NCBI RefSeq assembly: GCF_031191545.1
Contig: NZ_CP133472.1
Location: forward strand, 1,922,001 to 1,986,000
Source: Schaalia odontolytica
Lineage (GTDB): Bacteria; Actinomycetota; Actinomycetes; Actinomycetales; Actinomycetaceae
Length of the DNA: 64,000 nucleotides
Reading direction: 5' to 3'
Shown here one piece after another: positions 2 to 43,153 of this stretch. Position 1 is the stretch's first letter; every line of letters starts with the position of its first letter. The position numbers were made by a program, and so were the translations under genes. The notes beneath the pieces were generated by a model. That model was not told the origin of the DNA and did not search any database. It saw nothing but the letters and a program-made list of their open reading frames with translations.

Positions 2-2659
2 GTCAGTGCTGACGCCGCCGGGCAGGCTAACGCTGCCGCCTCGCTGAGCGCAGACACCGACGGCTTCATCATCAACGCCGACGGCGTGCTCGTGGGCTAC
101 ACCGGTGGTGCCAGCGAGGTACGCATCCCCGAGAGCGTGACCAAGATTGGCACCAGCGCTTTCGCCAACGCGCATCTGACGAAGATGTGGATTCCTGCGT
201 CCGTGCGCGAAATCGACGATTATGCCTTCGCTCACCAGCCCCTCGTAGAGATCACCTTCCAGGATGACGATGCCCACCCCTCGCAGTTGACGTACATCGG
301 AGAGCGCGCCTTCATTGACACGCCGCTGGAGCACATCACGCTGCCCCGCGCCCTCGAGATGGTCGGCACGGAGGCTTTTGCCGAGATGGAGAAGCTGCGT
401 TCTATCCACGTTGGCCCGAGCATGCAAGAGGGCGCTCTACTGTACGCCTTCGCGCGCTCTCCGCGCCTGGAGCGCATTGACGTCGACACGGCCAACCAGA
501 GCTACCAGAGCCTCGACGGCGTCCTGTACACAAAGGGCCTGACTCAACTGGCGACCTACCCGCCAGCGAAGAACGCCGGCGGTAACTATGCGCTCGCCGA
601 AGGGACCCAGACGATCGGCGTGGATGCATTCTCCTACGCTCAGATCACCTCCGTCACCCTGCCCTCGTCCCTGCGCCACGTGGAAAAGACCGCGTTCGCG
701 GGCGCGCAGATCACCTCCCTGACGCTTCCCGACGGCTTCGAATCCATGGATGACATGGCGTTCTGGTACATGCCCAAGCTCCAGCGTGTCGACCTGGGTG
801 GAACGACGAAGGTCGCGGACAGTGCTTTCCGTTACGATAGGGCGCTGACCGAGGTGAACTTCCGCCCGGACCTGAAACGCCTCACCGCGGTGTCCGACTA
901 CGCCTTCGAGGACGCGCCGCTTGCATCTGTCACGGTGCCCGACTCGGTGACGAGCATCGGCAAGAGCGCGTTCTTTGGCAACAGTTCCCTGACCCGCCTG
1001 CACTTGGGTGCGGGGCTGTCCTCGATCGGAGAATCGGCGTTCTTCGGGACAAAGTCTCTGTCTTCGCTGACTGTGTCTTCGGCCAACCCCGTGTTTTCCG
1101 TCGATCGTGGCGTCCTCTACCAGCGCTCCGACGCGGGCCAGATTCTCGTCCTGTCTCTGCCCACGAACGCGGCTACCGAGTTCACGGTGCCCGAAGGCAC
1201 CGTCGAGATCGCTGACTCCGCGTTCTCGAACAACACGTCCCTGCGTCGCGTTGTCCTTCCCGAGGGCTTGACCACCATTGGCTTTGGTGCCTTCGATGGC
1301 TGCGACAACCTGGCCGACATCGTCATTCCCGACTCCGTGCAGGTGGCCCGCGGCCTCGTCAACAACGGCCTGGACATGATCGAACTGGGCTCTCAGGTCA
1401 CGGAACTGTGGATGACTCCGCGTAACACCCCGACCCCGCGTCACGTCATCGTGCGAGGCGGATCCGATGGCGAATTCTACTACGAGGGTAAGGCCACCAA
1501 CGGACGTCCCGACAGCGCCTTCTTCGGCGAGGGGATGACTCGCTTCACCTTCTGGTTTGACACGCCCCGCGTTCTGGTCCTGCCTTCGACCGTGAAGGAG
1601 CTCAAGCTCGCCGAGGATATGGCGGCCGACCTGAAGGCCGACACCGCCGTCTACGTCGCAGCTCCCAGGGGCTCTCAGGCGTGGCAGATCGCTGAGGCTG
1701 CCATGAAGCAAGCTGGGTACAACACGGCCAACCTCTTCGAGTACGCCGAGCCGGCCCTGAGTGTATCGGGCACCGGCATCGACGAGGCCGGGGCCGGGTA
1801 CACGCTCACCTCAGCGGTTGGCGTCCCGACGACGGTGTCTGTCTCCGCTCAGGCCGGTGTCCTGGGCACACGCCAGATGCGTCTCGTCCAGATCGAGTCC
1901 GACGGGCGTGAAACCGTCCTGCAGGACTGGGCCGCGATGTCAGAAAGCTCGGACACCGCCACCTCGACGGGCTCCTTCTCTTGGACCCCGGCCAGCGACG
2001 GCATCGTCGCGCGTATCGACGTGCGTGACGAATCGAAACTCGTGAGCTCGACGACCGTGACCTTCAAGGCCTCCTCGGCCTCGGCGCCCAAGCATGGAAA
2101 GTGGGTGCGCAGCGGTCGCAGCTGGCAGTACCACTACGCGGACGGTACACGCGCCACGAGCACCTCGCTCGTGATCGACGGACAGACCTACCGCTTTACT
2201 GCCAAAGGAAACATGCGCACCGGCTGGTTCTTCGAGGGGGGCGCGTGGTATTACCACGGCTTCTCGGGCGAGCAGGCCTCCGGCTGGGTTCTCGACGGCT
2301 CCTCCTGGTACTACCTGAGCCCGGCCACGGGGAAGATGCAAACCGGTTGGCTCAAGGATGGTTCGTCCTGGTACTACCTGGATCCGAACACGGGTGCCAT
2401 GGCCACGGGTTGGCTTAAGGATGCTTCGTCCTGGTACTACCTGAGCCCGGCCACGGGGAAGATGCAGACCGGATGGGTCAAGGATGGTTCGTCCTGGTAC
2501 TACCTGGATCCGAACACGGGTGCCATGGCCACGGGTTGGCTTAAGGATGCTTCGTCCTGGTACTACCTGAAGAACGGAAGCGGCGTGATGGCCACGGGCC
2601 GACTGCGGATCTTCTCGAGTTGGTACACCTTCTCGCAGATGGGCGAGCTGATCGGCTAG
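2..2659 (+). CDS. BspA-type leucine-rich-repeat surface protein with C-terminal cell-wall-binding repeats (5' end missing)
   Basis: The reading frame is open from the first bases of the window, so the true start and signal peptide lie upstream. The GTG at 86 is only an internal codon. Residues to about 560 are LRR_5/BspA-like repeats of the pattern IP.SVT.IG..AF....L, which typically form a surface-exposed adhesin-like solenoid. A short beta-rich linker follows. From about nt 2090 come GW...SWYY repeats of roughly 21 residues (for example GWLKDGSSWYYL) related to choline/cell-wall-binding modules. Family knowledge suggests an exported protein held non-covalently at the wall. The following protease carries the same module. 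An intrinsic terminator follows the stop codon. Ligand and binding partner are unknown. Confidence 0.88.
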   Translation, partial: VSADAAGQANAAASLSADTDGFIINADGVLVGYTGGASEVRIPESVTKIGTSAFANAHLTKMWIPASVREIDDYAFAHQPLVEITFQDDDAHPSQLTYIGERAFIDTPLEHITLPRALEMVGTEAFAEMEKLRSIHVGPSMQEGALLYAFARSPRLERIDVDTANQSYQSLDGVLYTKGLTQLATYPPAKNAGGNYALAEGTQTIGVDAFSYAQITSVTLPSSLRHVEKTAFAGAQITSLTLPDGFESMDDMAFWYMPKLQRVDLGGTTKVADSAFRYDRALTEVNFRPDLKRLTAVSDYAFEDAPLASVTVPDSVTSIGKSAFFGNSSLTRLHLGAGLSSIGESAFFGTKSLSSLTVSSANPVFSVDRGVLYQRSDAGQILVLSLPTNAATEFTVPEGTVEIADSAFSNNTSLRRVVLPEGLTTIGFGAFDGCDNLADIVIPDSVQVARGLVNNGLDMIELGSQVTELWMTPRNTPTPRHVIVRGGSDGEFYYEGKATNGRPDSAFFGEGMTRFTFWFDTPRVLVLPSTVKELKLAEDMAADLKADTAVYVAAPRGSQAWQIAEAAMKQAGYNTANLFEYAEPALSVSGTGIDEAGAGYTLTSAVGVPTTVSVSAQAGVLGTRQMRLVQIESDGRETVLQDWAAMSESSDTATSTGSFSWTPASDGIVARIDVRDESKLVSSTTVTFKASSASAPKHGKWVRSGRSWQYHYADGTRATSTSLVIDGQTYRFTAKGNMRTGWFFEGGAWYYHGFSGEQASGWVLDGSSWYYLSPATGKMQTGWLKDGSSWYYLDPNTGAMATGWLKDASSWYYLSPATGKMQTGWVKDGSSWYYLDPNTGAMATGWLKDASSWYYLKNGSGVMATGRLRIFSSWYTFSQMGELIG
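2315..2570 (+). repeat. 126-bp tandem duplication inside the wall-binding repeats
   Basis: Bases 2352-2444 recur exactly at 2478-2570, an offset of 126 bp that equals two 21-residue repeat units. The sequence just upstream (from about 2315) matches the sequence from about 2441 with few changes. The duplication keeps the reading frame, and its near identity at DNA level indicates recent expansion or gene conversion. Confidence 0.9.
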
Positions 2660-2694
2660 AACCCGCATTCAGACGGTGAATCCTATGTCACCGC

Positions 2695-2727
2695 GCCGGC
2701 ACCTTCGGCTTCCCCGGAGGTGTCGGC
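2695..2727 (+). terminator. intrinsic terminator after the LRR gene
   Basis: GCCGGCACCT (2695-2704) pairs with AGGTGTCGGC (2718-2727) with one G.U pair and a 13-nt loop. There is no T-tract, which is common in high-G+C actinobacteria. It separates the LRR gene from the structured RNA element that starts at about 2731. Confidence 0.6.
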
Positions 2728-2730
2728 TCC

Positions 2731-2937
2731 AAAATCCCAGGTGTTTCTCAGGTTGTTTTGTCTTCGTCACAAGGTTGGTCTCCTACATTAGGAGTCGTCA
2801 CAAAGGAATACGGCACGGGCCACACGGGCTCGGGACATGCCGGCGAAACTTTTTCAAGGAGCTTTCTGGGAGAACTTGCACTGTGTTGATGGGATATGCC
2901 GAGGGGTCGACCGTAAGGTCGACCCCTCGGCATATCC
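2731..2937 (+). ncRNA. structured RNA element, copy 1
   Basis: This 207-nt stretch aligns without gaps to 7306-7512 at roughly 79% identity by hand count. It ends in a perfect 21-bp hairpin (arms 2892-2912 and 2917-2937, loop GTAA). Three base pairs of that stem are changed on both arms in copy 2, keeping pairing (U-A to C-G twice, C-G to U-A once). Two more helices are conserved: CTCCTA/TAGGAG at 2780-2794, perfect here but with one mismatch in copy 2, and CGGCA..TGCCG closing CGGGCC/GGCTCG at 2811-2842. It lies downstream of a terminator, so it may be its own transcript. A TACATT hexamer at 2784-2789 could be a -10 box. It matches no RNA family I know. Confidence 0.65.
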
Positions 2938-3225
2938 GGAGAGCTCGCACAAAATATCAAGGTATGGACAGATCGAGCCGGGAGAGTGGTTCTTGCGTGC
3001 TTCGTGTCGGCGACCCACTCGCGACTCACGCTCCGATCGTGGGGTAACACAATCGCACGATTGCGCCTCTTTGCGTCTGCTGCGCAGGCGGAAAGCGGCG
3101 CACCGCTAGGTACCGTTGGCAACAAACGCATACTGCACAAGTGAAGCAACTTCTGGATAATGGGGCGGTGCCTCCTCCAGGCGCGACCATGATCGTCACC
3201 TAGTCGACACGTAAGCGAGCGATAC
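2938..3225 (+). promoter_or_regulatory. leader/promoter region of the subtilase gene
   Basis: No gene is seen here. A GATAAT hexamer at 3156-3161 could be the -10 box for the protease gene, giving a leader of about 60 nt. CAATCG-CA-CGATTG at 3050-3063 is a perfect short inverted repeat that could be an operator. Both are weak predictions. Together with the terminator and RNA element this accounts for the 566-base gap 2660-3225. Confidence 0.35.
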
Positions 3226-6200
3226 ATGTCCCAACGACCAATCCCGGTACTGGCGCTCGTCGCGACCGGAGCCCTCACCCTTAGCGGCGTGAACTCTCCG
3301 ACCTTCGCGGCGACCACTGCGCCGGGCGATGTGCTCCCCGCAGCCCCGGCCTCGTCACCCAAGGACCAGCCAGGCACACAGGTTGAGGACGTTCTCCTCT
3401 CCGTCCGCCAGGCCGACGCCGGTGGGCTGACCCTGCCCGATGCCTCGAACACGCGGGAATCGGTCGACGACACCCCGACGACGATCATCGTCCAGCTTGA
3501 GGAGGGCGACGCGGGCGTTCCCTGGCACCGCCGCGTCTTCGGTCTGTCCTCGAGCACAAAGCACGACGAGGTGAAGGCGCGCATCTCCTCCGCCGTCGCT
3601 GACATCGTTCCCGGCGCTCAGACCACCACAGTGCGCGACTACTCTCACGCCTTTGACGGCTTCGCCATCGAAGCGCCCGGCTCCGCGCTTGCAGCTATCC
3701 AGGCGACCGACGGAGTGAAGGCTGCCTTCATTGAACGCGTGCGCGCCACCATGGACACCAGCGCCGACGGGGCGGGCAACCCCACCCTCAAGAACGCCTC
3801 ATCCCTGGCGATGACTCGCGCCAACGAGGCGACCCAGAAGGGGGATCGCCAGGTCATCGAGGTCATCGACTCTGGCCTACAGCTCGATCACGACGCCTTC
3901 TCTGGCTCCATGGATGGCGTCGACGTGCGGATGACAGCGGCCGACGTGGCTGCCTTCACCTCCACGCTCGCCCACGGCAAGACCGGCACCTACGTCAACA
4001 GTAAGATTCCCTTCGCCTACGACTATGCCGACAATGACGCCGACGTCGTGCCCCACTCCGCGAAGGACCTGTCCCACGGCACTCATGTGACCGCGATCGC
4101 GGCGGCCAATGGGGACGTTCTACAGGGGACAGCACCCCATGCTCAGATCGTCGTCGCCAAGGTGACATCCGATGCGAATGGTTCCCTGACTGATAGCGCC
4201 ATCTTGGCTGCCCTCGACGACGCACTCGTCATCAAGCCGGATGTCATCAACCTTTCCCTCGGTGACGACGCCGGTATGAGCAGCGAAGCCGGAACAATCT
4301 TCGCCGACGTGTACAAAGCCCTGGCAGACGCGGGGATCACCGTCAACGCTGCCGCGGGTAACGCCTTCTCCAATGCATACGGCAACAACAGCGGACAGAA
4401 CAAGCCCTTCGCGACAGACCCCGACACGGGTACGCTCGGTGAACCCGCCTCCTATAAGTCAACCCTGGCGGTAGCCTCGATCGACAACCAGGAAGCTCTG
4501 CCCTACGTGGAGCTGGGTGACCGAAAGATCGCCTACCGCAACGCCCTCGACGATCGGGGTGAGAACGTGCCCGGCCTGCGCGACATCGTCGACAAGAACT
4601 ACCGTGTTGTCTTCGCAGGAGCGGGAGGCAGCGACGAGCTCGAGCATCTCACGGGAAGCGATCTATCTGACGTGATCGTTCTCGAGAACAAGGGCGGGAC
4701 TGATACTCGCAGCGGGCAGACAATGACCGACGAGCTCAAGGCCTCTCATCTGGCAGCCCTCAGCCACGCACCCGCGGCCCTCATGATCGCGGACACCGAC
4801 GAGGCTGAGACCCCCTACCAGGCGCTCGTGGGCTCGACCCGCACGATCCCGACGGTGACCATCTCCAAGATGGACGCCAAGGCAATCATTGAGGCCATCG
4901 CGGACGCTGATGGCGCAGACGTCTTCGTGCGAGTCACCCACTCGGGCGTCGTACTGGCCTCGAACAACCCAACGGCGTCAGAGTTCTCCTCGTGGGGTGT
5001 CGCCCCCGACCTGACTCTCAAGCCCGAGATCGCGGCACCCGGTGGTGACATCCTCTCGGCTGTCCTTGGGAACGACTACCAGCGGCTCTCCGGCACATCG
5101 ATGGCGTCCCCGCAGGTCGCTGGCATCAGTGCTCTCGTGCGCCAGCGCATCGCGACTGATCCTCTGTTTGCGGGCAAGTCCGACGCGGACAAGAGCGCGC
5201 TCGTCACGAACTTCCTCATGGGAACCGCCCGCCCGCTCATCGACGTCGAGCTGGGCGACGGAAGCTACTATTCACCGCGCAAGGTGGGGGCTGGTGCCGT
5301 CGATGCGCTCGCCGCGACCACCGCGAGCGTCTACCCGACGGTCATCGGAGCGGCCGACCCCTCGCGCCCCAAAGCTGACCTGGGTGACGGCACGACGGGC
5401 TGGACCTTCCAGGTACAGCTCTCGAACCTCTCCGACACCGCCCACACGTACACGCTCGGCGGTCAGGCACTGTCGGAACTTGCGCAGGAGGGAATCCTCC
5501 TCGAACACTCCCGGAACTGGGTGGGAGAGGGAATTTCCCTGGCCTTCTCGGGTGAGGCAGTGGTCGAGGCTGGCGACGCTCAGCAGATCTCCGTTCCCGC
5601 TCGGTCGAGCGCGACCGTGACCGTCACCGTCACGCCCGAGGCCGACTTCATCACCGCCGCCGAGGAAAACACCCCGAAGGGAACATTCATCGACGGTGCC
5701 GTAACCTTCGCCAGCGTCGACGAAACGCCGAGCCTGACGGTGCCGTACCTGGGCTTCTACGGATCGTGGGGGATCCCCAACGTATTCGACGGAAAGTGGT
5801 CAGATAACGAGACGACACCCGTGCACGTCTACCGATCCGCACTGGTCAACGCCCATTCCTCAATCCCCTTGGGTTCTCTGAATCCGCTGTCGGACAAGCA
5901 GTACGTGAACCTGGTCGGCAAGATCAACCCCGACCGCTTCATCGCGTCGCGTGCCGGGCTTGCCAATGCCCCCGACGAGATCGTTCCTCTCACGGGCATG
6001 CTGCGTTCCGTCCCATCGGTGAGGCTGACCTATCGCAACTCCGCAGGTCAAACCGTAAACTCCTACACGATCAACCGCGTGCGCAAGTCTCTGTACGACC
6101 TGGCGACCGGCTGGACGAAGCCCGGTGAGTTCTCCGGTGAGGAACCCGTCTTCGACGGGTACGACGAGTCGGGTCAGGCGCTGCCTGACGGACGCTACAC

Positions 6201-7206
6201 GCTGACGCTCGAGGCGGCAACGGACGGCCCCTCCTCACAGACCCACCAGATGAGCTACGAGTTCACGTTGGATACGAAGGCCCCCGTCATCTCCAACGTG
6301 ACGGTCCATGGTGAGGGCGAGGAACGCACGATCTCCTTCGATGTCGCCGACGACTCGCCCTTGACGGGCATCGACTTCCACGAGTCCGCCGGCGGGGCGT
6401 GGTACTTCCGCAAGCTCATCGAAGACGACGGTGAGATCCAAGCTGACGGTACGCACCGCTACCACTGTGAGGTCTCCGTCGCCGAGCTGAACCGAGCCTG
6501 GCAGGAGATGGGCCGCACGGGCGAAGCCCCGGCCACCTCCTACCTGTTCGCCTGGGACTGGGGCCTCAACCCCGCCCAGCAGGAAGTGCGCCTCCACAGT
6601 GACCCGAGCCCGGCACCCGGGCCGGCCCCCGCCCCGCAAGCCGGTGAGTGGAAGTGGAACGGTGTGGGTTGGTGGTACCGCTACAACGACGGCACCTACC
6701 CGAGCAACGGCGTGGCCGTCATCGACGAAGGCACATACCGATTCGACGAGCGCGGCTACATGCGCACCGGCTGGGTGTGGGAGAGCGACTCGTGGTACTA
6801 CCACGTCTCCTCCGGTAAACAAGCCAGCGGCTGGGTGCTCGACGGCATGACCTGGTACTACCTGGATCCCACCACTGGCGTCATGGCGACCGGCTGGGTT
6901 AAGGACGGTCCCTCCTGGTATTACCTGATGCCCGGTCGTGGTGCGATGGCAACCGGCTGGCTACACGATGGTGGTTCCTGGTACTACCTCAGCACCGCTT
7001 CCGGTGCCATGGTCACCGGCTGGCTCAAGGATGGGGGACGCTGGTACTACCTGTCCCCCGGCAACGGAGCGATGGCAACCGGCTGGCTCAAGGACGGGGA
7101 TCACTGGTACTACCTGACGCCCGGCAACGGAGCGATGGCAACCGGCTGGCAATGGATCGGCTGGCAGTGGTACCGCTTCGCCGATAACGGCCAGTGGATC
7201 GGCTGA
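3226..7206 (+). CDS. cell-surface subtilisin-like (S8) serine protease with PA-type insertion and wall-binding repeats
   Basis: This 1326-residue protein begins with a secretion signal (about 1-29, ending TFAA). A propeptide-like region follows (about 85-175). The S8 catalytic domain shows Asp215 (IEVIDSGL), His284 (SHGTHVTA) and Ser625 (LSGTSMASP). About 430-580, between His and Ser, reads as a protease-associated insertion, as in lactocepin/C5a-peptidase relatives. Fn3-like beta domains follow to about 1120. After a proline-rich linker, residues 1140-1326 are GW..SWYYL wall-binding repeats like those of the upstream LRR protein. All catalytic residues are present, so it should be active. 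No other in-frame start precedes ATG 3226 after the stop at 3190. Likely role is degradation of host or environmental proteins at the cell wall. Confidence 0.93.
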   Translation: MSQRPIPVLALVATGALTLSGVNSPTFAATTAPGDVLPAAPASSPKDQPGTQVEDVLLSVRQADAGGLTLPDASNTRESVDDTPTTIIVQLEEGDAGVPWHRRVFGLSSSTKHDEVKARISSAVADIVPGAQTTTVRDYSHAFDGFAIEAPGSALAAIQATDGVKAAFIERVRATMDTSADGAGNPTLKNASSLAMTRANEATQKGDRQVIEVIDSGLQLDHDAFSGSMDGVDVRMTAADVAAFTSTLAHGKTGTYVNSKIPFAYDYADNDADVVPHSAKDLSHGTHVTAIAAANGDVLQGTAPHAQIVVAKVTSDANGSLTDSAILAALDDALVIKPDVINLSLGDDAGMSSEAGTIFADVYKALADAGITVNAAAGNAFSNAYGNNSGQNKPFATDPDTGTLGEPASYKSTLAVASIDNQEALPYVELGDRKIAYRNALDDRGENVPGLRDIVDKNYRVVFAGAGGSDELEHLTGSDLSDVIVLENKGGTDTRSGQTMTDELKASHLAALSHAPAALMIADTDEAETPYQALVGSTRTIPTVTISKMDAKAIIEAIADADGADVFVRVTHSGVVLASNNPTASEFSSWGVAPDLTLKPEIAAPGGDILSAVLGNDYQRLSGTSMASPQVAGISALVRQRIATDPLFAGKSDADKSALVTNFLMGTARPLIDVELGDGSYYSPRKVGAGAVDALAATTASVYPTVIGAADPSRPKADLGDGTTGWTFQVQLSNLSDTAHTYTLGGQALSELAQEGILLEHSRNWVGEGISLAFSGEAVVEAGDAQQISVPARSSATVTVTVTPEADFITAAEENTPKGTFIDGAVTFASVDETPSLTVPYLGFYGSWGIPNVFDGKWSDNETTPVHVYRSALVNAHSSIPLGSLNPLSDKQYVNLVGKINPDRFIASRAGLANAPDEIVPLTGMLRSVPSVRLTYRNSAGQTVNSYTINRVRKSLYDLATGWTKPGEFSGEEPVFDGYDESGQALPDGRYTLTLEAATDGPSSQTHQMSYEFTLDTKAPVISNVTVHGEGEERTISFDVADDSPLTGIDFHESAGGAWYFRKLIEDDGEIQADGTHRYHCEVSVAELNRAWQEMGRTGEAPATSYLFAWDWGLNPAQQEVRLHSDPSPAPGPAPAPQAGEWKWNGVGWWYRYNDGTYPSNGVAVIDEGTYRFDERGYMRTGWVWESDSWYYHVSSGKQASGWVLDGMTWYYLDPTTGVMATGWVKDGPSWYYLMPGRGAMATGWLHDGGSWYYLSTASGAMVTGWLKDGGRWYYLSPGNGAMATGWLKDGDHWYYLTPGNGAMATGWQWIGWQWYRFADNGQWIG

Positions 7207-7239
7207 CATTGCAGGGGAGGCGCTGAGCCTACCCGGTCG

Positions 7240-7272
7240 TGCGCGCCCCCGGAGCAATTCCGGGGGCGCGCA
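7240..7272 (+). terminator. intrinsic terminator after the subtilase gene
   Basis: A perfect 14-bp stem (TGCGCGCCCCCGGA at 7240-7253 with its complement at 7259-7272) has a 5-nt loop. It lies 33 nt after the protease stop and before RNA copy 2, so copy 2 is probably not just the protease 3' UTR. With RNA copy 2 and the permease terminator it accounts for the gap 7207-7616. Confidence 0.85.
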
Positions 7273-7305
7273 CTGGTCTGTGACCCATTAGCTGCCTGCG
7301 GGGTT

Positions 7306-7512
7306 ACAATTCCAGGACTTTCTCAGTTCCCATTGCTGGCGTCGCAAGGTTGGGCTCCTACAGTAGGTGTCATCACAAGGGAACACGGCACGGGCCACTC
7401 GGGCCCGAGCAATGCCGACGAGACACCATTGAGGAGCTTTCTGGGTTAACTTGCACTGTGTTGATGGGATACGTCGAGGGGCCGACCATTAGGTCGGCCC
7501 CTCGACGTATCT
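7306..7512 (+). ncRNA. structured RNA element, copy 2
   Basis: This is the gap-free paralogue of 2731-2937. The terminal hairpin has 20-bp perfect arms (7468-7487 and 7492-7511, loop ATTA). Relative to copy 1 three pairs are exchanged on both sides, and one G-C pair at the base becomes G.U. The block reading GAGGAGCTTTCTGGG and then AACTTGCACTGTGTTGATGG is nearly identical in both copies. There is no rightward gene downstream, only the leftward permease, so a cis riboswitch for a following gene is unlikely. A stand-alone small RNA ending in the hairpin fits better. TACAGT at 7359-7364 could be its -10 box. Confidence 0.65.
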
Positions 7513-7560
7513 GCATCCCTGCTGGCATCTCCACCTGGAATGCGGTACGTGGCCGGAAAA

Positions 7561-7597
7561 CCGGGGCGCGTCGGGCACACTGCCCGACGTGCCCCGG
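7561..7597 (-). terminator. terminator of the permease gene
   Basis: A 17-bp stem (7561-7577 with 7581-7597, one G.U pair) is followed on the minus strand by TTTT. It ends leftward transcription 20 nt after the permease stop codon. The right side overlaps the CCCCGGCCTCG core (7592-7602) found at many gene ends here. Confidence 0.85.
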
Positions 7598-7616
7598 CCT
7601 CGTTGATCGAGAACGC

Positions 7617-9557
7617 TCAGAGACGTTCAAAACCCGCGTCCCACGCGGCGCGCATGGGGTTCGCGTCGGCGACCAGCTGATCGAAACGCAGGTCCGCAAT
7701 GTCGATGACCTCGCCGAGGGCGAATCGTGCTTCGCGGGCGGGGGAGTGTTCGACGCGGCGCCAGCCCGAGGACAGCAGGTGCTTGCGGTCCACCACGTTG
7801 TCCACGCAGATGACGAGGGGTCGGCCGAACTTCTCGTGGTAGGCGGCGGCGAGGGCGCGCAGCTCCTCCGCTTCCTCGGGGGTCACCTCGCCCACTGACA
7901 GGGATGAGGTGTCCGAGCTGGACTGTTCGTCCCCCGCTCCGTCGAGGACCAGGGAGACGACGTCCGTGTAGGACGCGATGAGCTCCTCGGCTTCCTCGGG
8001 GCTGGCCGCCAGGACAGCGTCCTCGAAGGAGGAACGCAGCTCGGTCACGGAGGCGAAGGGGCGAGACTCCCACGCGCGCTCAACCGGCCAGGTGTGCGAG
8101 GAGAACATCGTCGAGAAGGTGGCGACGAACTGGTCGCGATCCATCGCGTTGACGTCGTCCAGGTTGATCTTCTTGCCGTCCACCAGGGCCACGTCCGGCG
8201 AGGCCTGGCGTCCGATGTGGAAGAACAGGAGGTTCAGGATGATGGCCGTCAGCGAGCCGATGGTCACGCCGGAGCCGAAGATGATCTGCAGCCAGGAGGG
8301 CATGACACTCACGATGCCGGGCTTCAGAGTCACGAGGAGGGCGAGGCCGATTGACGTGGAGACGATGACGGCGTTGCGATTGTCGCGCAGGTCGACCTTC
8401 GCCAGGGTCTGGATGCCGACGACTGCGACGTTGGCGAACATGGCCAGGGAGGCGCCGCCGATGACGGGCTGCGGGATCGCCGCGACGATGGCCGCCGCCT
8501 TGGGCAGCAGACCCAGGAAGATCATGAAGACACCCGCCGCGGTGACGACCCAGCGGGACTTCACGCGGGTGAGGCGCACGAGGCCGACGTTCTGCGCGAA
8601 GCAGGTGTAGGGGAAGGAGTTGAGGACGCCGCCCAGCAGGGTGGACAGGCCGTCGGCGCGCAGGGCGTTAGCGATGTCGCGCGGGGCGATGCGCTTGCCC
8701 ACGACCTCGCCGGTGGCGAAGACGTCGCCCGTGGTCTCCACGGCGGTCACGGCCATGACGATGATCATGGCGAGGAGCGCGGTGAGCGAGAACTTCGGGA
8801 TGCCGAAGTAGAAGGGCGTGGTGATACCCAACCAACTGGCCTCTCCCACGCCCGAGAAATCGGTCTTGCCCATCGCAAAGGCAACGGCTGTCATGATGAG
8901 CAGAGCAAGGAGCACGGACAGCGTGCCCATGAAGCCCTTGAAGAGGCGCTGGATGATGACGATGATCGCGATCGTTCCAAAAGCGAAGCCGAGTGCCTCG
9001 AATGTCGCGGTTGCCTTCGCTGCGTCATCGGCGGCCCGATCGGCCCAGGCGACGATGTCACCGGCGGAGACGGACAGGAGCGTCGTGCCCATGACGGTCA
9101 GGAGCGTACCCGTGACGATCGGTGGGAAGAAACGCAGGAGCTTGGCGAAGAAGGGGGCGACCAGGAAGACGAGAAGGCCGACGGCGATGATGGAGCCGTA
9201 CATGGTGGCCAGGCCGGTCTTCGGGTCGGCGCCGGGGGGTGTGGCCGCAGCTCCGATAGCAATGAGAGGGGAGACGGCGGTGAAGGTGACACCCTGAATG
9301 AGGGGAAGCTTCACGCCGATGAAGCGGCCGATGCCGGCCGACTGGATGATGGTAGCAATACCGCAGGTGAGCAGATCGGCGTTAATGAGGTGGACCAGCG
9401 TGTGGTTGTCGAGCCCGAGGCCGGAGGCGATAACGAGGGGAACGACCACGGCACCCGCGTAAAACGCGAGGACGTGCTGAATGCCCAGAATGGTGAGTTT
9501 CCCAAAGGGAGGGACTTGATCGACGGGGTGGGGAGCGGACGAGGGGCTTGATGCCAT
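7617..9557 (-). CDS. NCS2 nucleobase:cation symporter fused to an OHCU-decarboxylase-like domain
   Basis: The start is the ATG at 9557, preceded by AGGAG at good spacing; upstream codons lack a ribosome site. Residues of about 20-460 form a polytopic xanthine/uracil permease (NCS2) that should import purines or uric acid with a cation. Residues of about 472-646 align by motif with 2-oxo-4-hydroxy-4-carboxy-5-ureidoimidazoline decarboxylase (UraD). Recognisable parts are the SRPF segment, the EQ pair (Glu544), AYHEKFGRPLVI, and the RRVEHS and ALGEVIDIADLRF segments. The family HPDLA motif with the catalytic His is replaced by YTDVV (Tyr530), so the domain may be inactive or regulatory. A LacI-type remnant lies divergently upstream. 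Confidence 0.88.
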   Translation of the reverse strand: MASSPSSAPHPVDQVPPFGKLTILGIQHVLAFYAGAVVVPLVIASGLGLDNHTLVHLINADLLTCGIATIIQSAGIGRFIGVKLPLIQGVTFTAVSPLIAIGAAATPPGADPKTGLATMYGSIIAVGLLVFLVAPFFAKLLRFFPPIVTGTLLTVMGTTLLSVSAGDIVAWADRAADDAAKATATFEALGFAFGTIAIIVIIQRLFKGFMGTLSVLLALLIMTAVAFAMGKTDFSGVGEASWLGITTPFYFGIPKFSLTALLAMIIVMAVTAVETTGDVFATGEVVGKRIAPRDIANALRADGLSTLLGGVLNSFPYTCFAQNVGLVRLTRVKSRWVVTAAGVFMIFLGLLPKAAAIVAAIPQPVIGGASLAMFANVAVVGIQTLAKVDLRDNRNAVIVSTSIGLALLVTLKPGIVSVMPSWLQIIFGSGVTIGSLTAIILNLLFFHIGRQASPDVALVDGKKINLDDVNAMDRDQFVATFSTMFSSHTWPVERAWESRPFASVTELRSSFEDAVLAASPEEAEELIASYTDVVSLVLDGAGDEQSSSDTSSLSVGEVTPEEAEELRALAAAYHEKFGRPLVICVDNVVDRKHLLSSGWRRVEHSPAREARFALGEVIDIADLRFDQLVADANPMRAAWDAGFERL

Positions 9558-9722
9558 CTGTGTCTCCTGGACCTTTATCCAAGTGTTGAAGGGACCCCTC
9601 CATTCTCTGTGATCAGCCGATGCGATTAGCAGGTTATTCACAAAGTGTGGCGAGTTATATGTCACGGGCCCTTGTCGTTTACGATGTGAACAAAGCGGGA
9701 CACATGCGGGAGGGAGGCGGGT

Positions 9723-10034
9723 ATGACGCGCAATGGTCGTCCTCCGTCGATGGTGGACGTGGCCGAATTGGTCGGAGTCTCTCATCAGACGGTGTCTCGC
9801 GTGGTGAACGGCAAGGGGTGTGTGTCGCCTCGGACGCGCGAGCGCGTGCAGGGCGCCATCGGTACTTCCTTAGCGAGTGTGTGGCGATGCTTCGGGGGTG
9901 TCTGTGCCCCCTGCGTTGAGAGGGGTGAACTCTCGGCGCGGGTGCCATGTCAGAGAGTTCTCGTGACGAAAAATGCGCCGATGGCGGCGCATTTGAGAGC
10001 CTCTGAACTGCAACCAGTCGGCAAGTTTGAGTGA
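9723..10034 (+). pseudogene. LacI-family regulator remnant (DNA-binding head only)
   Basis: A good Shine-Dalgarno (GGGAGG) precedes ATG 9723. Residues 1-46 are a typical LacI helix-turn-helix (MVDVAELVGVSHQTVSRVV, then VSPRTRERV). After GAI the sequence no longer resembles LacI, the sugar-binding core is absent, and the frame ends at 103 residues. I find no core in the other frames nearby. It sits divergent to the permease gene, whose regulator it may once have been. A short DNA-binding protein could still be made. Confidence 0.7.
9971..9994 (+). terminator. short hairpin within the LacI remnant tail
   Basis: AAATGCGCC (9971-9979) pairs with GGCGCATTT (9986-9994) around a 6-nt loop. It could terminate the remnant transcript. 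There is no long T-tract. Confidence 0.4.
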
Positions 10035-36768: not shown

Positions 36769-36888
36769 GACCACAGACTAGCCGCCCCTTGTTCGCGAGG
36801 GCTGACAATCGCCTGCGAAAACGCTGAGAGCTGAAGGGGAACGCGCGGCGGACGTGCGTCGGTTGCTCGCGTGGGACACAATGACACG

Positions 36889-43076: not shown

Positions 43077-43153
43077 CGCGGGGTGGAGCAGTTCGGTAGC
43101 TCGCCGGGCTCATAACCCGGAGGTCGCAGGTTCAAATCCTGTCCCCGCTACCA
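43077..43153 (+). tRNA. initiator tRNA-Met (CAT)
   Basis: A 77-nt cloverleaf with encoded CCA. The acceptor strands are CGCGGGG and CCCCGCT with an unpaired first position (C1 opposite T72). The anticodon loop has CAT, flanked by three G-C pairs (GGG/CCC), and the T-arm reads AGGTTCAAATCCT. The mismatch and the three G-C pairs are the hallmarks of the bacterial initiator tRNA. The rest of the gap 42974-43297 holds its promoter and the leader of the next gene. Confidence 0.95.

Follow-up and report, generated by a model that had tools for sequence, protein, structure and literature searches.

The window analysed here is a stretch of 64,000 nucleotides of the Schaalia odontolytica genome (contig NZ_CP133472.1, positions 1,922,001 to 1,986,000). 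Near its start lie two surface-protein genes with choline-binding repeats, and behind each of them, following a strong hairpin 3' of the gene, stands a copy of a 207-nt repeat that we describe as a candidate small RNA (sRNA) gene. An earlier interpretation made from the letters alone (the sequence-only reading) had placed both copies after the hairpin that ends a surface-protein gene, in agreement with the ends of the LRR_5 gene at 2659 and of the S8 peptidase gene at 7206. The copies, 2731-2937 and 7306-7512, align without gaps and are identical at 163 of 207 bases (78.7%, given earlier as about 79%), whereas the best of up to 20,000 randomly drawn pairs of 207-nt windows matched at 88 of 207. 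A third copy is found in the source genome at G000:C1:1324377-1324559, with no wall-repeat gene before it. The features of the two window copies and their neighbours are as follows.

2734..2752, plus strand: direct-repeat box of copy 1 (ATCCCAG-GTGT-TTCTCAG-G), lying at about -62 to -44 and probably the activator site; the same box stands at a fixed distance from the -10 element in most relatives
2784..2789, plus strand: -10 element TACATT of copy 1, 31 bp 3' of the box
2796..2938, plus strand: predicted sRNA of copy 1, the start deduced from the -10 element and the end from the hairpin
2811..2842, plus strand: 5' hairpin of copy 1 (CGGCA..CGGGCC/GGCTCG..TGCCG), from folding; the 5' sequences differ in relatives
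2874..2895, plus strand: conserved core ACTTGCACTGTGTTGATGGGAT of copy 1, proposed target-pairing region; TGTGTTGATGGGAT is invariant in 77 alignment rows, which were gathered with it
2892..2937, plus strand: terminator hairpin of copy 1, 21 bp, without a T-run; pairing kept in 32 sequences
7309..7327, plus strand: direct-repeat box of copy 2 (ATTCCAG-GACT-TTCTCAG-T), from box comparison
7359..7364, plus strand: -10 element TACAGT of copy 2, 31 bp 3' of the box
7371..7513, plus strand: predicted sRNA of copy 2, from a covariance-model match and folding
7386..7417, plus strand: 5' hairpin of copy 2, in the centroid fold; the minimum-energy fold is partly different
7449..7470, plus strand: conserved core of copy 2, from its sequence
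7467..7512, plus strand: terminator hairpin of copy 2, with compensated pairs relative to copy 1
86..2659, plus strand: BspA-type leucine-rich repeat protein with choline-binding repeats (LRR_5 3.4e-62, Choline_bind_3 7.7e-34); the gene may start before the window
3226..7206, plus strand: S8 subtilase with choline-binding repeats (Peptidase_S8 5.8e-38, Choline_bind_3 4.2e-30)
7617..9785, minus strand: xanthine/uracil permease with an OHCU decarboxylase domain, convergent to copy 2 (domain search)

Between the terminal hairpins of the two copies (2892-2937 and 7467-7512), three pairs have changed with compensation, 2897/2932 (TA to CG), 2899/2930 (CG to TA) and 2907/2922 (TA to CG), and at the end pair 2892/2937 GC is replaced by GT (G-U); our recount reproduces the changes listed in the sequence-only reading. 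The predicted 143-nt transcripts fold with z-scores of -8.0 (copy 1) and -7.2 (copy 2). The same pairing is preserved in the 32 sequences from which a covariance model of core and terminator (R1) was built. Over 17 pairs, 96.5% of the cells are paired compared with 78.4% after shuffling, and 16 of the 17 pairs show changes on both sides, with 111 double-change cells against 31 in shuffled alignments and at most 24 when the arms are slid. As judged from these alignments, the terminator hairpin is free in sequence, its pairing being maintained by compensatory change.

Directly 5' of the terminator hairpin lies the core, with the consensus (A/C)CUYGCACUGUGUUGAUGGGAU. The 14-mer UGUGUUGAUGGGAU within it is invariant in the 77 rows of alignment A3, an invariance that is partly a product of selection because the rows were gathered with this 14-mer; R1, which does not require UGUGUUGAUGGGAU, recovers the same loci. 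The alignment holds 77 of 91 unique instances, those left out being near duplicates, one truncated copy, one with an odd hairpin and one chance match, and two more had been set aside earlier as weak. The part of the RNA 5' of the core is variable among relatives, and the predicted length, 143 nt in the window, ranges from 80 to 156 nt over 55 relatives.

The core contains a GTG with a purine-rich stretch 8-9 nt 5' of it, as would suit a small peptide starting at the GTG or ATG of the core (VLMG...). This GTG opens a frame that ends after 4 codons in 16 of the 90 instances and whose length overall ranges from 4 to 521 codons, and the core is fixed at every codon position, the third included. 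A peptide is scarcely credible in view of this variation, and the case made against one in the sequence-only reading is strengthened.

Upstream of the RNA, the relatives share a box with the consensus TTCCCAG-NNNN-TTTCAGG, a 7-4-7 direct repeat. After the removal of near duplicates from 87 upstream regions, 64 promoters remained, 54 of which have a TANNNT -10 element after the box, at 31 bp in 51 and at 32 bp in three; any other box spacing from 15 to 49 gives only 0-6 copies each. Ten of the 64 promoters lack a -10 element at 31 or 32 bp, at least one of them owing to a misplaced box (L012). The distance from box to core in the 54 promoters extends from 85 to 155 nt. Because the spacing from box to -10 is fixed while that from box to core varies, promoter and RNA body can be told apart as two units, and ~60 bases at the 5' end of the 207-nt element are promoter. 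The 207-nt RNA element of the sequence-only reading thus stands as a repeat, although part of it precedes the RNA, and the 22-nt fixed stretch before the terminal hairpin had not been singled out. The 5' ends expected there, near 2795 and 7370, agree with the -10 elements at 2784-2789 and 7359-7364. A conserved promoter unit, a body of variable length, an invariant core and a covarying terminator speak strongly, at the level of sequence, for the stand-alone small RNA that had been proposed as one possibility.

Each window copy lies behind a surface-protein gene and has a strong hairpin at its end, an arrangement that would also be expected of a cis element, that is, a terminator, 3' untranslated region or attenuator of the adjoining genes. 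These genes already possess terminal hairpins of their own, and the copies carry a promoter-like unit at fixed spacing. A convergent gene is found downstream of copies 2 and 3 of the source genome. Moreover, 53 of the 68 instances with enough upstream sequence are not behind a wall-repeat gene; the 15 that follow a gene with at least two GW..WYY motifs, the measure used for this count, are nearly all S. odontolytica-like. A cis element is accordingly improbable, and the same count lends no support to the mobile-like cassette tied to wall-binding-repeat proteins that had been suggested earlier.

The search for covarying homologues by covariance model, which the sequence-only reading had called for, gave full-length R1 matches in 35 of 35 genomes of the window's genus, with 1 to 4 copies of the RNA in every genome. 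The 12-mer TGTGTTGATGGG occurs 88 times in these genomes, and 79 of the occurrences coincide with R1 matches when compared by eye. Covariation of an inverted repeat fits DNA hairpins as well as RNA, and the window copies are paired around one gene; a REP/MITE-like or attC-like element or another recombination site acting at the DNA level has these points in its favour. The low copy number in all 35 genomes, the recurrence of a copy pair ~4.4-4.7 kb apart in several relatives, and the asymmetric layout, with promoter and core on one side and a single hairpin at one end, make a DNA element very improbable, and the REP/MITE alternative raised in the sequence-only reading finds no counterpart in this pattern.

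Covariance-model and pattern searches place the RNA in 15 further Actinomycetaceae genomes. The core was found in 37 of 40 further loci, of which 15 are in the Gleimia genus (10 of 10 genomes with matches), three in the Scrofimicrobium genus, two in another genus and 17 in the window's genus. An 18-mer search reached 53 stretches: Actinomyces 18, Schaalia 12, Actinomycetaceae or Actinomycetales metagenome-assembled genomes (MAGs) 10, Gleimia 3, Sanguibacter 3, Xylanimonas 2, and one each from Pauljensenia, Scrofimicrobium, Trueperella, Anaerolineae and Saccharopolyspora. Several of the unexpected genus labels belong to genomes placed in the window's genus, and the exact-core matches in the Anaerolineae MAG (L096) and Saccharopolyspora (L130) were judged to be chance. 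A family-wide search gave matches in 137 of 213 genomes at E<=0.01, which is not a count of the RNA family because many of the matches are hairpin-only. Order-wide and class-wide searches (396 and 394 genomes, overlapping draws) gave 89 and 49 at E<=0.001, family members included. Outside Actinomycetaceae, no match above 34 bits was present among the matches listed for these 396 and 394 genomes; those of 34 bits or less often consist of one hairpin matched on both strands, and none of 20 low-scoring loci outside the family, checked whole, has the 14-mer with fewer than three mismatches. Given the strict filters of the order and class searches, these figures do not prove the RNA absent from Actinomyces proper or elsewhere.

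The RNA family is undescribed in Rfam 15, as the sequence-only reading had supposed. In a cmscan of the window only a tRNA (43077-43150) reaches its gathering score, and a permissive scan of 2600-7600 returned eight sub-threshold matches, the best by bits being a miRNA model at 31.9 against a gathering score of 97. No description of such an RNA in Schaalia or Actinomyces appeared, by title and abstract, among the matches listed from the open-licence literature. Noncoding RNAs have been reported in Actinomyces, and the retrieved part of that report describes no RNA of this family (PMC7160235).

Candidate targets were sought through complementarity to the core. A near-full complement (19-mer, at most three mismatches) is found in the source genome only at the three sRNAs. 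The exact complement CCCATCAACACA occurs nine times outside the sRNAs in 35 genomes, about the chance level, and three of these nine 12-mers fall at one orthologous place, just 5' of the Shine-Dalgarno (SD) sequence of a TM2 gene, the leading one of a tandem pair. This site is kept in five more genomes of the S. odontolytica-like group, none of which was used for finding it. It is retained by wobble in G028 (CAACGCA) and G020 (TTCCATC), shortened to 11 bp in G024 and to 10 bp in G012, and present in the source genome as CCCCATCAAGTACAG with a one-base bulge. Counting these shortened, wobble and bulge variants, the complementarity is kept in eight genomes of one species group. TM2 genes occur in 28 of the 35 genus genomes, the remaining seven having no TM2 match. 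A second target family, whose protein starts with MSSPW, has an exact site in five genomes, and its orthologue in the source genome keeps the site by wobble (TATCAACATGG). The targets predicted from complementarity in the source genome are given below.

Start ~1,384,242: TM2-domain membrane protein
~441,743: MSSPW / GYGAQ-repeat protein with a hydrophobic C-terminal part, beside a response-regulator gene
346,713-346,733, minus strand: solute-binding lipoprotein
1,257,551 and 1,261,582: two secreted S8 subtilases

Because the core matches the ribosome-binding sites of several exported or membrane proteins, the sRNA probably turns these proteins down. On balance we favour the reading that the repeats are two of three source-genome copies of a gene family for a trans-acting sRNA that represses envelope mRNAs and is driven by a response regulator. 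In the proposed mechanism, a response regulator of the OmpR/PhoB type would bind the box and switch on the sRNA copies. The sRNA, ~140 nt long here, would then pair through its core with AUCAACAC-type sequences overlapping or just upstream of the SD sequence, and the pairing would block ribosome entry on mRNAs of exported and membrane proteins. The anatomy of the genes, their conservation and the complementarity can be read directly from the DNA, and from them we infer that the sRNAs are expressed, which kind of activator drives them and in which direction they regulate.

Several results weigh against this reading. Matches of the box elsewhere in the genome are little above chance (22 versus 9 in the control), from which it follows that a good part of them are chance matches, and a clear box precedes none of the seven Trans_reg_C response-regulator genes of the source genome. 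The core is not predicted to be especially open, with a mean unpaired probability of 0.45 against 0.44 for shuffled cores in 55 folded RNAs, and many Schaalia copies begin with CAUCA, a sequence able to pair with the UGAUG in the core. Most TM2 genes outside the S. odontolytica-like group have no clear site, the only candidates by eye being in G004, G008, G016 and G022; nor is a clear site seen at the second gene of the tandem. The pattern ATCAACAC-GGAG-start codon yields 62 matches versus 5 for the reversed control, which is not an enrichment because ATCAACAC is codon-favoured about fourfold (13 occurrences in 464 kb, where its permutations average 3.3). Among 394 genes of the source genome sampled without bias, the exported ones show only a weak excess of complementarity to the core: 8 of 98 have at least seven pairs, a number that 6 of 150 shuffled cores reach (rank test P=0.16). 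Duplex energy by itself does not discriminate, as 17 of the 394 background genes form duplexes no weaker than those of three of the five targets. Finally, the bias to exported proteins at ATCAACAC starts depends on a start rule fixed post hoc and on an export call that is a hydrophobicity heuristic.

Under that rule, which was set after viewing the matches (open reading frame of at least 60 aa, GC3 > GC2, no more than 70 codons in frame upstream), 34 of the 61 places examined are translation starts, two of the 62 matches sharing one place. Of these starts, 25 belong to genes for exported or membrane proteins, compared with 1 of the 27 other places. About 8 ATCAACAC starts are expected from permuted 8-mers and ~3 from composition; the 34 seen are not independent sites because orthologues inflate the count. 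By gene family, 9 of 14 are exported versus 98 of 394 own background genes (25%; P=0.002). SufB-like and ligase-like matches to the pattern, named by eye, were rejected as in-frame coding sequence that fails the start rule.

An alternative that accepts the RNA genes as real holds that the partner of the core is not mRNA but a protein or some other RNA, the complementarity to ribosome-binding sites being coincidental or minor. A 14-nt invariant stretch in multi-copy RNAs would also suit a protein-binding or titrating RNA, and the core that is not predicted to be open, the weak outcome of the unbiased target test and the scarcity of clear TM2 sites outside one species group all fit this view. 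Complementarity kept through wobbles and a bulge at the ribosome-binding sites of TM2 and MSSPW orthologues that were not used in discovery argues against it, as does the bias of start-site matches to exported proteins. We consider this alternative unlikely, though it deserves consideration. The idea of an open core is itself unsupported by folding, and a universal helix between 5' end and core is weak, at least five pairs being formed in 48% of 48 RNAs versus 35% after shuffling.

Regarding the activator, the OmpR/PhoB-family regulator PhoP requires 7-bp direct repeats separated by 4 bp, according to the retrieved sections of PMC4832192. We infer that the box is bound by a response regulator of this type, probably one that senses envelope stress. 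The box also stands in front of a putative lipoprotein gene, named by eye and lacking a Pfam match, and of genes carrying PG_binding_1 and HlyD_3 domains, and near matches precede an M48 protease gene and a Lon_C protease gene. An envelope-stress regulon behind the box is offered as a suggestion only, because several of the box matches are due to chance. A pattern with a period of 12 bp instead of 11 gave 22 matches, close to the 19 of its control, and so amounts to a negative control. Among known regulators, neither the Corynebacterium glutamicum MprA motif TKTTAAGAAM nor the Streptomyces CutR motif TAWATAAA matches the box, in the form given in the retrieved parts of PMC12113857 and PMC12802291; those of PMC10433416 state no motif, and no mention of a mycobacterial MprA box appeared among the papers listed.

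More tentatively, and as a possibility that falls somewhat short of probable, sibling sRNAs across several Actinomycetaceae genera would answer to one envelope-stress regulator and use a single unchanged 14-nt seed to silence TM2 proteins, lipoproteins, subtilases and solute-binding proteins, presumably without Hfq; in many Schaalia copies, the CAUCA 5' end, which resembles a target, may mask the seed until a target takes its place. To our knowledge, Hfq is absent from this phylum, and few base-pairing sRNAs of Actinobacteria combine a conserved seed with a predicted regulon. If the proposal is correct, three RNA copies, one seed and five predicted targets in a 2.46-Mb genome form a testable model, the promoter box would point the way to the regulator and to its signal, and the envelope proteins of an oral commensal would be tied to post-transcriptional control.

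The enterobacterial sRNAs RybB, MicA and CpxQ are induced by envelope stress and lower the synthesis of outer-membrane and envelope proteins; they depend on Hfq and are unrelated in sequence to the Schaalia RNA. The nearest functional parallel found is provided by the streptococcal csRNAs of the CiaRH regulon, which are sibling sRNAs with CiaR direct repeats before the -10 element, an anti-translation-start sequence beside the terminator stem-loop and a role in cell integrity (retrieved parts of PMC3091779 and PMC4507080). In these accounts, the csRNAs share with the Schaalia RNA several siblings per genome, direct repeats of 11-bp period before the -10 element and a conserved start-complementary sequence beside the terminator, the complementarity being predicted from sequence in our case. 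By contrast, their promoter repeat is NTTAAG-N5-TTTAAG or TTTAAG-N5-TTTAAG, a pattern that the Schaalia box TTCCCAG-N4-TTTCAGG does not follow, and the CiaR box lies ~10 nt from the -10 element instead of 31. The csRNA pairing region is unpaired and both anti-SD and anti-AUG, whereas the Schaalia core would pair mainly just upstream or at the edge of the SD sequence and is not predicted to be open. With unrelated sequences in different phyla, the Schaalia RNA, as judged from its box and sequence, is not a csRNA. The nearest actinobacterial parallel, likened by description, is Mcr7 of Mycobacterium tuberculosis, an sRNA under the OmpR-family regulator PhoP that modulates translation of the secretion gene tatC, the one target established for it in the retrieved text (PMC4038636).

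Some individual sites complete the description. At window 36812-36829 (G000:C1:1958812-1958829, minus strand), the box occurs with one mismatch between two divergent genes, one for a Zincin_2 metallopeptidase and the other for a Lon_C protease; this may be a further regulon member or a chance match. On the minus strand at window 9557, where the permease frame 7617-9785 may have an inner start, TCAACAC lies ~15 nt before GGAG as a 7-nt match to the core complement; it may fall within the coding frame and could be chance. In front of a putative lipoprotein gene and a gene for a PG_binding_1/HlyD_3 protein, three half-sites follow one another at 11-bp steps (G000:C1:240215-240243, L065). An exact box at G000:C1:295491-295508 (L060) is followed after 31 bp by CACAAT (by eye) and by a putative lipoprotein gene, which is likely, from this arrangement, to be a protein-coding member of the regulon. 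In the same genome, CATCAACGGAGG is present at the start of a BMP-type-looking lipoprotein (L340:12309), and a similar N-terminus with a ATCAACAC start occurs in two other genomes (L325, L353). At ~440.9-441.7 kb of G000:C1 (L164), an OmpR-type response-regulator gene is divergent from the MSSPW target gene and represents a candidate activator.

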